Source of the DNA: Holosporales bacterium
Lineage (GTDB): Bacteria > Pseudomonadota > Alphaproteobacteria > RUG11792
NCBI GenBank assembly: GCA_031260085.1
Contig: JAIRKP010000030.1
Coordinates: forward strand, 1 to 12,591
Reading direction: 5' to 3'
Length of the DNA: 12,591 nt
Shown piece by piece: positions 3,735 through 12,591 of this stretch. The position numbers and the translations under genes are program-made. Each line of letters starts with the position of its first letter. Positions within the stretch are counted from its first letter, which is position 1. The notes beneath the pieces were generated by a model. It saw nothing but the letters and a program-made list of their open reading frames with translations. It had not been told where the DNA came from and searched no databases.

Positions 3735-5138
3735 ATGAAAAAATTGTTGATATTATTAATAGCTCTGATAGCTGTGCAATTTGATATAAGTGCGGCAACG
3801 CGAGTTAGGCTCGGAACTGAAACAACTGCTCTTCCAAAGAAAAAACCATATTTCAGAAAACAAGATCCGGTGGTTCGAGGGGTATTTTTAGAGCTAGCAG
3901 CAAAAAAGATGATAAATTTAATGAAAGATTATCCATACCCCGATGTTGCGCTTGATTTATTGTATTTAATATTGCAAAATGTATTGTTCCCAGAGATAGA
4001 TTTCATGTGGACTGTGATTAGTCAACATTCTCCCGAAATGTTTGCTGATTCATACAAAAACCGCATACTTTTATATTATGCATTTCGAGACATAATAGTT
4101 AATCATCTCTCTAAAGATCAGGCGTTAAAAAAAAGTGAAAATGATTTAAAAATTGGCAAATATCCATATACATTTGAGGCCAAGCCAATAATGCATGATG
4201 TAACTTTATATACAAGTGCCATAGATATGGAAAGAATATTAGCTAGCTTATCAGATATACAAAACGAATTTAGATTATTTTGCCAATCGATTCCAGACTA
4301 TACTCAAGCGCTTCCAAACCCAGACAAAAGACTGAATCAAAAGGTGTTATACGGAGTTCATTCGACTAGACAAAATTATGCATGCGGGGTCTACATTGCT
4401 CCAAATGGGAAAGGTTTTCCTATCCAACGGGTATCCCCGGCCCTAAGCCCTTGGGGAATATTTGGTGTTCCACCAGGAGATAATGAAGCTTTAGAGAAAA
4501 AAGTGCACGAAGATGTTTCCAAAATAGAGCGTCGATACCCGGAAACGGCTATAGAAATATTCAATGGTACATGTCAAGATGCGGTTATAAAACTTGGAGC
4601 TAAAAATAGCGTTGCGTTGCTCAGCTTTGCACATGCGACAAAAGTTGGAGGCGGGACTTATGAAGTAAAATTAGGCCAGGAGGAGCTTAATATACACACC
4701 ATTGCTGGATTATTTGAGAGCTTGGCAGCTCTTGCTGCGCCGCCTGAAAAATTAACATATAAAGATTCATTACATTCTCCAGAAAGCGTTTTATATACCA
4801 CTGGAGCAACATTAATAAAAAGATTTCAAAAAGGAGTGGTTCTTGCGGCTGATCAACCTATAGTGCTAGACGTTATAAGCTGTGCCGGCATTCCAATAGG
4901 TGTGCTCAATCCAAAGTATCCAGATCTTTATAAAGAAATAGACAGAAGAATAGGGTTGGTGTTTGCTATGGCTATCGTGAATGGCTGTGAGATACTTATA
5001 CTCGGGAAGTATAATCTCGGAAAACTTAACGGAGATCCCAATAAAATCACTGCTATAATTAAGAAATATATAAATAAATATCAGGGATATTTTGAATCTA
5101 TAGTCTTAGCGGCCGGAGATTATGAGCCTTATGCATAA
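3735..5138 (+). CDS. Predicted exported PARG-like (DUF2263/TIGR02452-type) protein
   Basis: The 467-residue product begins with a typical Sec signal peptide (MKKLLILLIALIAV...ISA, likely cut near residue 20). The C-terminal half matches microbial-type poly(ADP-ribose) glycohydrolases: IEIFNGTCQDAV (273-284), then SFAHATKVGGG-TYEVKLG-QEE (297-317). The last is the PARG signature GGG-X6-8-QEE, with both catalytic Glu present (E316, E317). Next come the HSPESVLY segment (347-354), ISCAGIP and the closing ILILGKYNLGKLNGDP (420-435). Known members hydrolyse ADP-ribose glycosidic bonds. Two changes deserve note: the Asn of the PARG FAN motif is His300, and the usual GCGxFGN before the C-terminus is NLGKLNG, so activity is uncertain. 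Residues 40-270 include a region I do not recognise. An exported PARG in a likely intracellular bacterium suggests a host-directed effector; that is inference. AGGTG lies unusually far (14 nt) before the ATG. Confidence 0.82.
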   Translation: MKKLLILLIALIAVQFDISAATRVRLGTETTALPKKKPYFRKQDPVVRGVFLELAAKKMINLMKDYPYPDVALDLLYLILQNVLFPEIDFMWTVISQHSPEMFADSYKNRILLYYAFRDIIVNHLSKDQALKKSENDLKIGKYPYTFEAKPIMHDVTLYTSAIDMERILASLSDIQNEFRLFCQSIPDYTQALPNPDKRLNQKVLYGVHSTRQNYACGVYIAPNGKGFPIQRVSPALSPWGIFGVPPGDNEALEKKVHEDVSKIERRYPETAIEIFNGTCQDAVIKLGAKNSVALLSFAHATKVGGGTYEVKLGQEELNIHTIAGLFESLAALAAPPEKLTYKDSLHSPESVLYTTGATLIKRFQKGVVLAADQPIVLDVISCAGIPIGVLNPKYPDLYKEIDRRIGLVFAMAIVNGCEILILGKYNLGKLNGDPNKITAIIKKYINKYQGYFESIVLAAGDYEPYA

Positions 5139-5370: not shown

Positions 5371-7065
5371 ATGAGCGTAAAACAAGCAGAAAACGACTTT
5401 GCAGCTATGTTAGAGGATTCGTTACAAGGAAGTGAAACTTTAGAGGGGAAAGTTGTATTGGGTATCGTTGTGGGCATAAAAAGCGATAAGGCTGTGATAG
5501 ATGTTGGATTAAAGTCAGAAGGCAAACTGTTTTTAGAAGATATTAAAACATTGCAAAATTGTAACGAAGTGAAAATAGGTGACAAAATTGAAGTTTTTAT
5601 TGAGAAATTCGAAGACAGAAATGGCGAACCTATATTGAGCATTGAAAAGGCCGTGAAAGAAGCAATGTGGAAAGATCTTGAAAATCATCTGAACAATGAA
5701 ACAGCCGTTGAAGGAGCCATTACAGGGCGAACTAAGGGTGGCTTTTCGGTTGATTTAAATGGAACAATAGCTTTCCTTCCAGGAAGTCAAGTCGACTTAC
5801 GCATTGTGAAAGACATAGCGCCTTTGCTGAATCTTAAGCAGCCATTTAAAATCCTGAAGATGGATAAGAGTCGAAATAATATTGTGGTTTCTAGGAGAGC
5901 TGTCTTGGAGGCTTCTCGATCTGAGGCTAAAGCCGAGATTTTGGCGACTCTTGAAGAAGGATTGATTACCTCTGGAGTCGTTAAGAATATAACTGAATAT
6001 GGAGCGTTTGTTGATATTGGAGGCGTTGATGGTTTGCTTCATGTCACGGATATGTCTTGGAAAAGAGTTGCGGCGCCATCAGATGTTGTGAAAGTTGGAG
6101 ATACTGTTCAGGTTCAAGTTATTAAGTTTAATAAAGAAACCGGCCGAATTTCGCTTGGAATGAAGCAATTGCAAAAAACTCCTTGGGAAGGGATTGAAAA
6201 CAAATTTATCGTAGGAGAAAAATATAAAGGTAAAGTCGTTAACGTAACAGATTATGGCATTTTTGTTGAGCTTGCTGATTGCATAGAAGGCATGATTTAT
6301 ATGACAGAGCTCGGCTGGACTAAGAAGAACGTGACTCCAAACAAGCTGGTTAGCGTTGGCGATGAAATTGAAGTTATGATCTTGGATATAAATACATCTA
6401 AAAGAAAGATTAGTCTGGGCCTCAAGCAATGTAAGGAAAACCCATGGAAGCGGTTTGGCGAAGAACACGCAGTCGGCTCAAAAATAGAAGGCGTAATTAG
6501 AAATATAACTGAGTTTGGAATTTTCGTAGGAGTTAATGAAGAACTTGATGGGATGGTTCATATGTCGGATGTTTCTTGGGATGCAGATGGACATGAAGCA
6601 TACCTGAAAAGTATACAAAAAGGACAAAAAATAGAAGTAGTTGTTCTCGATGTGAATCCCGAAAAAGAAAGAATCAATTTAGGAATAAAACAACTTCAAC
6701 CCGATCCTTATGAAGAATCTATAAAAAATATTAAAAGGGGCGATATTGTTGTCGTTGAAATAACCGGAATTCATAGCGCAGGAATTGATGTCAAACTTAA
6801 AAATGGTCTTTCTGGGTTTATAAAAAAGAACGATCTTTCAAGCGATAGAGCATACCAGAGAACCGAAGGGCTTGTTCTTGGAGAAAAAATTGAAGCTACT
6901 GTGTTTAATATCGACAGAACAACCAGGAAAGTAAACTTATCTGTAAGATCCCTTGAAATTCAAAGAGAAAAAGCGGCGCTGCAACAGTTTGGCTCTCCCG
7001 ACAGCGGAGCAAGCTTAGGAGATATTTTAGGCGAAGCTCTTAAGAAGAAAGAAGAAAAAATATAA
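5371..7065 (+). CDS. rpsA: 30S ribosomal protein S1
   Basis: The 564-residue protein carries six S1 (OB-fold) repeats, at about residues 25-92, 111-176, 197-266, 284-353, 369-442 and 456-527. The central ones show the clear pattern ITEYGAFVDIGGVDGLLHVTDMSW...GRISLGMKQL. S1 binds mRNA on the 30S subunit and unfolds it for initiation. The first two degenerate repeats normally anchor it to the ribosome. The tail SGASLGDILGEALKKK is typical of alphaproteobacterial S1. I chose ATG 5371 because AAGGTG sits six bases upstream; an in-frame TTG at 5350 lacks such a site. The common neighbours cmk (upstream) and ihfB (downstream) are both absent. The stop overlaps the next reading frame. Confidence 0.98.
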   Translation: MSVKQAENDFAAMLEDSLQGSETLEGKVVLGIVVGIKSDKAVIDVGLKSEGKLFLEDIKTLQNCNEVKIGDKIEVFIEKFEDRNGEPILSIEKAVKEAMWKDLENHLNNETAVEGAITGRTKGGFSVDLNGTIAFLPGSQVDLRIVKDIAPLLNLKQPFKILKMDKSRNNIVVSRRAVLEASRSEAKAEILATLEEGLITSGVVKNITEYGAFVDIGGVDGLLHVTDMSWKRVAAPSDVVKVGDTVQVQVIKFNKETGRISLGMKQLQKTPWEGIENKFIVGEKYKGKVVNVTDYGIFVELADCIEGMIYMTELGWTKKNVTPNKLVSVGDEIEVMILDINTSKRKISLGLKQCKENPWKRFGEEHAVGSKIEGVIRNITEFGIFVGVNEELDGMVHMSDVSWDADGHEAYLKSIQKGQKIEVVVLDVNPEKERINLGIKQLQPDPYEESIKNIKRGDIVVVEITGIHSAGIDVKLKNGLSGFIKKNDLSSDRAYQRTEGLVLGEKIEATVFNIDRTTRKVNLSVRSLEIQREKAALQQFGSPDSGASLGDILGEALKKKEEKI

Positions 7066-7970
7066 TCGAAAATTTATTCGGAGCCATAGCACTAATAACT
7101 TCGTTTATTGGATTATTGCCTCAGGTATATAAATCCTATAAGACGAGATCTACGAACGATGTTTCGATGGTTATGTTGGTGAATTACGCAATTTGCTCAG
7201 CCTCTTGGATTGTTTATGGCGCCAAAACTGGTTCCGGATTTGTTATTTGGAGCAATATAATAGGATTATCGGCAAGTGGTGTTTCAATTATTCAGAAATA
7301 TAAATATGATAAAAGAAGTAGTGTACAAAGTTTAGATAAAAACTTATTTACAAAACAATACAAATCTATTTTATGTTTGGATGGCGCGCTGCCTCCTTCT
7401 TCGTTTTTTAAAGATATTAAATTGCCTATAATTGCAGCTGACGGGGCGGCTAATTCTCTAATAAATACTGGAATCGAGCCAGAACTTATAATCGGGGATT
7501 TAGATAGCATTAATGAGAAATTGATAAAAAAAAGAACTATATTAAAGATACCAGATCAAAATACAACTGACTTTGAAAAAGCCATAGATTACATAGCTCA
7601 AAATAACCTTTCGCCTCCTATCATCCTGGGGATCAACGGCGGCTATATAGATCATATTTTGAATAATATAAACTTATTTTCGAGTATTAATGCTATGTGT
7701 TACAGCGAAGATATTATAGGTTTCACAGTTCAAGATAAAATCGAATTAGACTTATTAGTTGGGACTAAGCTTTCGATATTTGGTTTTCCAAACTGCTGTC
7801 TTTCGACAAATGGTTTGAAATGGGAATTAGAAAATTCAACGTTAACATTTCCAGGTGTGACTTCTTGTTTTAACCGATCTGTTTCTAATAAAGTCGAAAT
7901 TACAGTTCATTCTGGCAAAGCGCTGGTATTTATTTATAAAACACCGATAAACGACGCCGGAATCCACTAG
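7062..7970 (+). CDS. thiN: SemiSWEET (PQ-loop) domain fused to thiamine pyrophosphokinase
   Basis: One continuous frame encodes two domains. Residues 4-77 (numbered from 7062) form a three-helix SemiSWEET/PQ-loop unit: NLFGAIALITSFIGLLPQVY, the motif LPQVYKSYKTRSTNDVSM, and helices near 34-53 and 58-77. Residues 101-294 are thiamine pyrophosphokinase (thiamine + ATP to thiamine diphosphate + AMP): AADGAANSL, IIGDLDS (145-149), DQNTTDFEKA (165-174), NGGYIDH (canonical GGRxDH, with Tyr for Arg), GLKWELEN and a VSN near the C-terminus. The start is uncertain. The first standard start is TTG 7116, but it would delete helix 1. Upstream only ATA (7062) or ATC (7065) are available before a stop at 7041, overlapping the rpsA stop, so the start may be non-canonical or reached by slippage at AAAAAA (7055-7060). 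The fusion suggests thiamine uptake coupled to phosphorylation. The last residues (NDAGIH) look repeat-derived. Confidence 0.88.
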   Translation: MIENLFGAIALITSFIGLLPQVYKSYKTRSTNDVSMVMLVNYAICSASWIVYGAKTGSGFVIWSNIIGLSASGVSIIQKYKYDKRSSVQSLDKNLFTKQYKSILCLDGALPPSSFFKDIKLPIIAADGAANSLINTGIEPELIIGDLDSINEKLIKKRTILKIPDQNTTDFEKAIDYIAQNNLSPPIILGINGGYIDHILNNINLFSSINAMCYSEDIIGFTVQDKIELDLLVGTKLSIFGFPNCCLSTNGLKWELENSTLTFPGVTSCFNRSVSNKVEITVHSGKALVFIYKTPINDAGIH

Positions 7971-11354: not shown

Positions 11355-11379
11355 TCAGGCAGGCGTAGCGCCTACCTGA
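11355..11379. repeat. Stem-loop overlapping the 3' end of the phosphoesterase gene
   Basis: TCAGGCAGGCG (11355-11365) pairs with CGCCTACCTGA (11369-11379) except for one C-A mismatch, around a 3-nt loop. The stop codon and last Arg codon of the minus-strand phosphoesterase gene lie in its right arm, and the adjacent AGTGACAT resembles the edge of common dispersed palindromes. The stem is GC-rich, but no T-run follows on the minus strand. Confidence 0.5.
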
Positions 11380-12591
11380 GAGTGACATGGCTAAGGCGCG
11401 CTTCTGGTGGCGGAGTTATGCTATTATGTTCTCGATAAAGTCCTCCGTATGCCAGAGATTGATAAACTCCTGCTAGTTCCGGGTATTGCCTTTGAAGCTC
11501 GTCATTTGGCTGTTGGAAATTGAAGTGGTCATGACCAAGGTAGAGGTAAATGCTTCTGTGGGGTAGATGAGGATGTTGTTGTCTAAGTCTGGCTAAAATT
11601 TGCCCTGTTTCGGCTGCTCCTGCATGAGAAGCAAATATTACTCTCCGACTTGTCCCTATGCTCTGTGCCAATAAATTGATTACTGGATCGCTACCCTGTG
11701 GGGGCAGTGTGAATAGGGTTTGGTGATAGTGATTTCTTGTGCAATAACCAACTATTGGAATGCCGTGCACTGTGATTGAGGTTGAAAATTGGACATGGTC
11801 GTCAGGATGGTGTGATAGTCTTTGGTTGGCATCAGTGATAATATGTAGTCGCCCACTTTGTATATACTCCCCCAGCATACGGGGGCGGGGGGTTTCGAGT
11901 ACCGGTAGGCCCTCTTCGTCGCTGAGCATGTGTAAAAGGTCACCGAACTCGTCTGTGTAAAACTCGTGATTACCTAAGTTAAACACAACGTGAGCGTTCG
12001 GGTATCGATTGAGTACTCCTCTGACGAATGTAGAGACTGCCTGGGTTATCAGTCGGGTAAGTGCTGAGGACGTTAAACTGGCAGCAGCAATTTGCGTGCC
12101 GTCAGCCGTCATATACGTTGCGCCTGGGCATAGTTGTGGATAGCGCCCGTCGTGCCTGTTCGGCGGAAACATATCTCCATTCAATAGCACGATAACTCTG
12201 GAATTTGTATTAGGAATCTCTGATGTCACTTGTTGTAGTAAAGGAAGAACTTGTGATGGCTGGCCGTGCCAATCATTGAGTTCGAGAATATGTACTGGGT
12301 CTGCTGCTGGTGGCGCTGTCGCTATTGGGGGCGGCGCTGGAGAAGCCTGAGGACGAGGAGGTTGCGCTTGGCTTAGAAGAAACTCAGGGAGATGCGAATG
12401 AATTAGATAGCACGTAGCATCATCCGCTCTCGCTTGACTAAATCTAGTTTGTGCTCTTTCCTGTGCGATATGAGTGTTACATGCCTGTGTAAGTATGGTG
12501 AGCGCTTGCGCATGAGGCTGAGTTGCTAGTCTTCTTGCTTCTGGGATTAAATGTGTTAGAGACTTATATATGAGCCACAAATTTTGTCCGG
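11372..12591 (-). CDS. Calcineurin-like metallophosphoesterase (5'-nucleotidase-like), 5' end cut by window edge
   Basis: At least 402 residues are visible. The frame stays open through a TTG at 12580 to the window edge, so the true start is unknown. All metal-binding motifs are present (numbered from 12580): D103 and H105 (ELNDWHGQ), D136 (LLNGDMF), N204 and H205 (LGNHEF), H319 (ASHAG), and H350 and H352 (YLGHDH). This is the arrangement of the UshA/5'-nucleotidase branch; the substrate cannot be told. An N-terminal Ala/Gln-rich helical segment (1-70) and a Pro-rich linker (74-94, PPRPQASPAPPP) precede the domain. The UshA C-terminal substrate domain is absent. GC content is plainly higher than that of neighbouring genes, which suggests acquisition or a different selective history. 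An extracytoplasmic or effector role is possible, but no export signal is visible because the N-terminus is missing. Confidence 0.87.
   Translation of the reverse strand, partial: GQNLWLIYKSLTHLIPEARRLATQPHAQALTILTQACNTHIAQERAQTRFSQARADDATCYLIHSHLPEFLLSQAQPPRPQASPAPPPIATAPPAADPVHILELNDWHGQPSQVLPLLQQVTSEIPNTNSRVIVLLNGDMFPPNRHDGRYPQLCPGATYMTADGTQIAAASLTSSALTRLITQAVSTFVRGVLNRYPNAHVVFNLGNHEFYTDEFGDLLHMLSDEEGLPVLETPRPRMLGEYIQSGRLHIITDANQRLSHHPDDHVQFSTSITVHGIPIVGYCTRNHYHQTLFTLPPQGSDPVINLLAQSIGTSRRVIFASHAGAAETGQILARLRQQHPHLPHRSIYLYLGHDHFNFQQPNDELQRQYPELAGVYQSLAYGGLYREHNSITPPPEARLSHVTLR

Follow-up and report, generated by a model that had tools for sequence, protein, structure and literature searches.

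A SemiSWEET gene that overlaps a thiamine pyrophosphokinase gene in small-genome Alphaproteobacteria suggests a carrier for vitamin B1, and in one draft genome the two genes share a single frame

PnuT belongs to the PnuC family, and the tnr3 gene that accompanies pnuT in a Bacteroides operon is taken here to be the thiamine pyrophosphokinase (TPK) gene of that operon. In an account of the Bacteroides pnuT-tnr3 operon, PnuT carried thiamine when placed in a heterologous host (PMC5613172). The SemiSWEETs, which are currently named sugar carriers, are represented by EcSemiSWEET, described as carrying sucrose, with Trp50 and Asn66 in its pocket, the loop after the first helix cytoplasmic and the loop between TM2 and TM3 outside (PMC4309421); for the related AtSWEET13, Ser54 is described as a sugar-selectivity residue (PMC11196581). 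The association of a SemiSWEET with TPK is not new, since one sentence of Jia et al. 2018 reports it for Legionella cherrii, and the authors suggest that such SemiSWEETs may carry other metabolites; the UniProt ID given there for the L. cherrii protein is identical to that given for Rickettsia felis, which makes the record ambiguous (PMC5972207). A limited literature search found no report of the gene overlap, the co-occurrence, the signature residues or the SemiSWEET-TPK fusion described here.

The DNA analysed, called the window throughout, is a stretch of 12,591 nucleotides from a Holosporales bacterium. A single forward-strand frame from 7062 to 7970, with 302 codons and a stop, encodes a SemiSWEET-type unit (MtN3_slv) with a complete TPK after it, and the frame is free of stop codons from 7045 until the stop at 7968-7970. 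When the 302-aa reading was compared with Pfam, MtN3_slv scored 39.0 bits (cut-off 23.7) and PQ-loop 36.2 bits (cut-off 22), both within residues 4-84; TPK_catalytic scored 72.7 bits (cut-off 30.7) at residues 123-207 and TPK_B1_binding 28.1 bits (cut-off 22) at residues 234-285. With four domains above their gathering scores in one stop-free frame, the original prediction of a single frame joining a SemiSWEET unit to a complete TPK was confirmed. In NCBIfam the protein reached 124.2 bits for thi_PPkinase TIGR01378, whose curated cut-off is 76.4, and it retained 40 of the 41 near-invariant columns of the TPK family, from which 25 relatives showed 0 to 6 departures. For none of the three SemiSWEET subfamilies in NCBIfam did it reach the cut-off, the best score being 48.6 bits for SemiSWEET_2 (cut-off 80), and the SemiSWEETs of all four relatives that were tested likewise fell short; the carrier half is thus homologous to SemiSWEETs but falls in none of the named subfamilies. 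A match to PF04973 (PnuC/PnuT) was not obtained at E ≤ 0.1. At the same limit there were 17 matches to PDB sequences: the first half matched SemiSWEETs, and the second chiefly thiamine pyrophosphokinases. Because the two halves matched these structures as well as proteins in 26 of 35 genomes of the order (its own included), the domains of the fused frame are not due to chance. AlphaFold2, run on the fused protein as a single sequence only, gave a mean pLDDT of 35.4 and a pTM of 0.28.

Table 1. Positions of the fused frame, its parts and the gene upstream of it within the window
Feature	Position	Strand	Basis or remark
rpsA, ribosomal protein S1	5371..7065	+	ORF opens at TTG 5350, ATG at 5371; directly upstream of the carrier frame
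ATA, probable non-canonical start codon for the SemiSWEET/fused frame	7062..7064	+	Overlaps rpsA TAA
SemiSWEET unit, three-helix PQ-loop, residues 1-85	7062..7316	+	Pfam MtN3_slv and PQ-loop; pocket W49, N65
Vestigial start of a separate TPK	7306..7335	+	+1-frame ATG (7306-7308) within the codons for Tyr82 and Asp83; stopped by TAG 7333-7335 after nine codons
Linker, residues 86-99	7317..7358	+	Junction comparison; matches the N-terminal tail of the relatives' TPK
TPK domain, residues 100-302, and stop	7359..7970	+	TIGR01378 above cut-off; 40/41 columns

Elsewhere in the window, the genes for tRNA-Lys(TTT) and tRNA-Glu(TTC) adjoin each other at 530-682 on the reverse strand, and a Vat/CatB-like hexapeptide acetyltransferase remnant occupies 1380-2130 on the forward strand, with an open C-terminal part (1813-2130) and an upstream part broken over several frames, which could reflect either decay or sequence error. 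A 467-aa protein encoded at 3735-5138 on the forward strand gave a weak match to the microbial-type PARG catalytic domain (28.5 bits, cut-off 23.5) and has an apparent signal peptide as judged by eye; from these features it is possibly a secreted, ADP-ribose-handling protein. At 11372-12589 on the reverse strand a metallophosphoesterase-like ORF, Pro/Ala-rich near its N-terminus by eye, runs past the end of the window.

The first ATG, GTG or TTG codon in the fused frame is TTG at 7116, which specifies residue 19, at the PQ motif that ends the first helix. The codon at 7062, where the original prediction had begun the frame, is ATA and overlaps the rpsA stop TAA at 7063-7065; it aligns with the ATG of a relative, L006 (MIEEFFG in the relative, IIENLFG here). 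By this comparison the near-cognate ATA is the likely start of the fused frame. Six A residues at the end of rpsA (7055-7060) precede a frame that would match after a −1 ribosomal slip, and such a slip, by feeding ribosomes into the frame, would also account for the missing start codon; nevertheless, the relatives of the order with an adjacent pair carry an in-frame ATG ahead of the SemiSWEET match, and we regard slippage as very improbable.

In all 18 relatives with an adjacent pair, the SemiSWEET and TPK genes were in different frames and overlapped, an overlap being called when the first available TPK start codon lay ahead of the SemiSWEET stop. The TPK ATG lay exactly inside the Tyr82 codon plus the next codon (tATGxx) in 12 of the 18. 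None of them had a fusion, nor was one seen in any other genome examined. Since the relatives' genes overlap in different frames, and the old TPK ATG of the window now meets a TAG, the fusion amounts to a net shift of the frame by one base within the overlap. The junction comparison places this shift, whether a true change or an error of assembly, between 7309 and 7332, where it turned the overlapping state into the fused frame. The fusion is a matter of one genome and one base, not a conserved architecture, and the suggestion that a covalent SemiSWEET-TPK is an evolved design was not borne out, the fusion being absent from all close relatives, an outcome that the original prediction had itself named as counting against it.

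The source of the window is a draft genome of 613,461 bases in 118 contigs, 64% complete, and an assembly or sequencing error is a serious alternative, which we place somewhat short of an even chance: the organism would have two overlapping genes like its relatives, and the fused frame would be a one-base artefact. Consistent with such an error are the lack of fusion in the 18 relatives, the still intact vestigial TPK start, and the missing canonical start, which puts two oddities on one gene. Against it stands a frame-break test in which 850 ORFs (at least 100 aa) from the stretches of two relatives were compared with the window and 40 of the 118 contigs of its genome, 216,206 bases in all. 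At E ≤ 1e-12, 106 ORFs matched, covering 64,981 distinct bases, and there were 0 breaks, as there were in a smaller run; the count applies to genes shared with the two references, away from gene ends, and does not extend to the acetyltransferase remnant. When the detector was checked by running the fused protein on the 18 relatives with an adjacent pair, it flagged the true frame changes in 16. Furthermore, each of the neighbouring rpsA, slt, dapA, xerC and PARG-like genes in the window has a long open frame and matches a family. The absence of breaks over 64,981 bases indicates that the assembly is not rich in frame errors, and this favours a real fusion but does not settle it; we hold, with moderate confidence, that the fused allele is real. 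Early decay of the gene pair, with loss of both the carrier start and the gene boundary, would make the fused frame a transiently open pseudogene. Such decay would agree with the non-canonical start codon and with the broken acetyltransferase remnant in the same window, which indicates that genes may decay here. However, 302 codons without a stop, the near-complete set of TPK columns (within the range of departures found among the 25 relatives) and the presence of the clade residue at seven of eight flagged SemiSWEET positions (all but position 29, where R replaces K) make decay unlikely.

The collection contains 35 genomes of the order, all from one family, and TPK was found in 26. The SemiSWEET lay directly before TPK in 13 of these and on another contig in 10, to which the window's own genome is added; in G030 it was seen merely as a 41-residue piece at a contig start, and G027 (79% complete) had TPK without a SemiSWEET. 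With the G030 piece counted, 25 of the 26 genomes with TPK had the SemiSWEET, and none of the 9 without TPK did (Fisher p=1.4e-7, ignoring shared ancestry and with three of the nine TPK-less genomes 64-89% complete). Two genomes had doubled SemiSWEETs, one with tandem copies before TPK (G015, L006) and the other with a second copy elsewhere, behind rpsA (G006, L071); heterodimers are possible in both. A draw of 385 genomes from the class contained the pair, side by side, in five further genomes of 0.8-1.0 Mb each (L036-L040), from four families, and these five were all of the genomes in the draw outside the order that had strong matches to both proteins. The overlapping pair therefore recurs in five families in all. 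In a draw of 398 genomes from the phylum, no further adjacent pair was found; of four other genomes with both matches, G566, G584 and G587 had them on separate contigs, and in G624 some 1.26 Mb lay between them. A related-loci search of genome contigs returned five loci, every one matching the TPK part only, and a plasmid search gave two weak matches, also to the TPK part.

Within the order, a match to rpsA lay upstream of the SemiSWEET in 11 of the 13 relatives with an adjacent pair and in 8 of the 10 genomes in which TPK lies elsewhere. In G016 (L064 1895-3927) the place that TPK has in relatives, overlapping the SemiSWEET that follows rpsA, is taken by dxs, which encodes a TPP-dependent enzyme. 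In the four families outside the order rpsA was not directly upstream of the pair, showing that the pair travels independently of rpsA.

The genes that might supply thiamine by other routes were sought in the same order, together with 14 control genomes. Biosynthesis genes thiC and thiE were each found in 0 of 33 genomes (in 13 and 11 of the controls, respectively), as were PF04973 (PnuC/PnuT; 5 controls) and the TPP riboswitch (10 controls; none in the window), and a ThiB-type sfuA was found in 0 of 34 (6 controls). All of these are draft genomes, of which 20 of 33 are at least 90% complete and the window's own 64%, and the biosynthesis and transporter searches covered thiC, thiE, PnuC/PnuT and ThiB. 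Within those limits thiC and thiE were not found, as expected from a loss of thi biosynthesis genes, and no other dedicated thiamine transporter of the PnuC/PnuT or ThiB type came to light. Of 24 genomes with TPK that were examined for TPP enzymes (PF02779), 23 had them, all except G017 (63% complete), versus 3 of 9 TPK-less genomes; loss of TPP demand goes with absence of the pair. The three exceptions (G004, G014, G018) had TPP enzymes, but neither TPK nor this SemiSWEET was found in them, so they probably have another source of TPP. The proposed link between the SemiSWEET and thiamine salvage was strengthened by the absence of these biosynthesis and transporter genes, by the co-occurrence with TPK and by the recurrence of the overlapping pair in five families; the tethered form in which it had been cast was not. 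Counting against the link are the lack of a TPP riboswitch, the three genomes with TPP enzymes but neither gene, the TPK of G027 without a SemiSWEET, and the 10 genomes with the two genes on different contigs.

We aligned 31 SemiSWEETs from TPK-bearing genomes, 20 of them from adjacent loci (including the G015 tandem copy) and 11 from other loci (including the second G006 copy), with 10 unlinked SemiSWEETs that had returned, matched loci; further unlinked copies were left out. The PQ motif (P20, Q21), W49 and N65 were present in all 41 proteins, including all 31 associated with TPK. By spacing, W49 and N65 would be equivalent to Trp50 and Asn66 of EcSemiSWEET, and position 45, four residues before the Trp, to Ser54 of AtSWEET13. 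As W49 and N65 also occur in the unlinked copies, the pocket alone is no pointer to thiamine. Five other positions distinguished the TPK-associated proteins, namely N41 (29 of 31), C45 (27 of 31), Q78 (30 of 31), G17 (31 of 31) and Y82 (31 of 31), with each residue in 0 of 10 unlinked proteins, one of which is gapped at 82. Conservation of Y82 may owe something to the TPK start that lies in its codon, yet the residue was also present in 11 of 11 copies where TPK is not adjacent. The 31 proteins formed one clade (node support 0.55), and the signature residues may reflect shared ancestry alone. These data bear on the reading that the SemiSWEET is a sugar carrier whose place beside TPK is incidental, within an operon shared with rpsA. 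The invariant W49 and N65 of the sugar pocket agree with it, as do the sucrose carried by EcSemiSWEET (PMC4309421) and the separated copies found behind rpsA in 8 of 10 cases; but the four other families have the pair without rpsA upstream, the SemiSWEET co-occurs with TPK across the genomes of the order, and the set of N41, C45 and Q78 is absent from the unlinked SemiSWEETs. We consider an incidental sugar carrier unlikely.

We favor, with moderate confidence and good support from genomic context, a SemiSWEET-type thiamine carrier and a kinase that would form an uptake-and-trap gene pair like PnuT-TPK, fused once; the recurrence of the overlapping neighbor genes in small-genome bacteria suggests that the carrier imports vitamin B1. 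A homodimer, the form that we infer for the SemiSWEET, would let its presumed substrate, thiamine, diffuse and equilibrate across the inner membrane. In the cytosol TPK would pyrophosphorylate thiamine to TPP, trapping it and keeping an inward gradient; if, as we infer, TPP is not a substrate of the carrier, this conversion would mean that uptake is driven by ATP use. Because in the relatives the TPK start codon falls within the final codons of the carrier gene, translation of the two is probably coupled, and the overlapping starts would balance the amounts of the two products. Given the topology of EcSemiSWEET, the C-terminus of the carrier and any tethered TPK would be cytosolic. In the genome of the window, the frame change would make TPK a C-terminal cytosolic extension of a putative fused protein, joined through a linker that was formerly the TPK N-terminal tail. 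A bolder version, in which a SemiSWEET clade shifted from sugars to vitamin B1 and a dimer with two tethered TPKs, started at AUA and fixed by one net base change, phosphorylates thiamine as it leaves the pore, appears to us doubtful.

If the clade does carry thiamine, the SWEET fold would serve vitamin B1 uptake in a second way beside PnuT, a substrate would be known for a group of SemiSWEETs, and the TPP supply of thiamine-auxotrophic bacteria with small genomes would be explained. N41, C45 and Q78 are named residues open to testing, and the fused frame, if real, would show that a one-base change in an overlapping pair yields a carrier-enzyme fusion. Compared with known systems, the protein of the window is like TIGR01378 thiamine diphosphokinases in scoring above the cut-off and having both Pfam TPK domains, and unlike them in having a membrane domain at its N-terminus. 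Its carrier half shares with SemiSWEETs (PF03083, PF04193) the three-helix unit, the PQ motif and the pocket Trp and Asn, whereas it belongs to its own clade, with N41, C45 and Q78, and occurs with TPK. The gene association is the same as that in Legionella cherrii, for which the cited passage mentions one species and neither overlap, co-occurrence nor fusion (PMC5972207). The pair differs from Bacteroides pnuT-tnr3 in the family of its carrier, PF04973 having been found in none of the 33 genomes, and in that TPP riboswitches are described there (PMC5613172), whereas none was found in the 33 genomes or the window; it resembles that operon in what would be the same arrangement, an inner-membrane thiamine carrier encoded beside a thiamine-processing enzyme.
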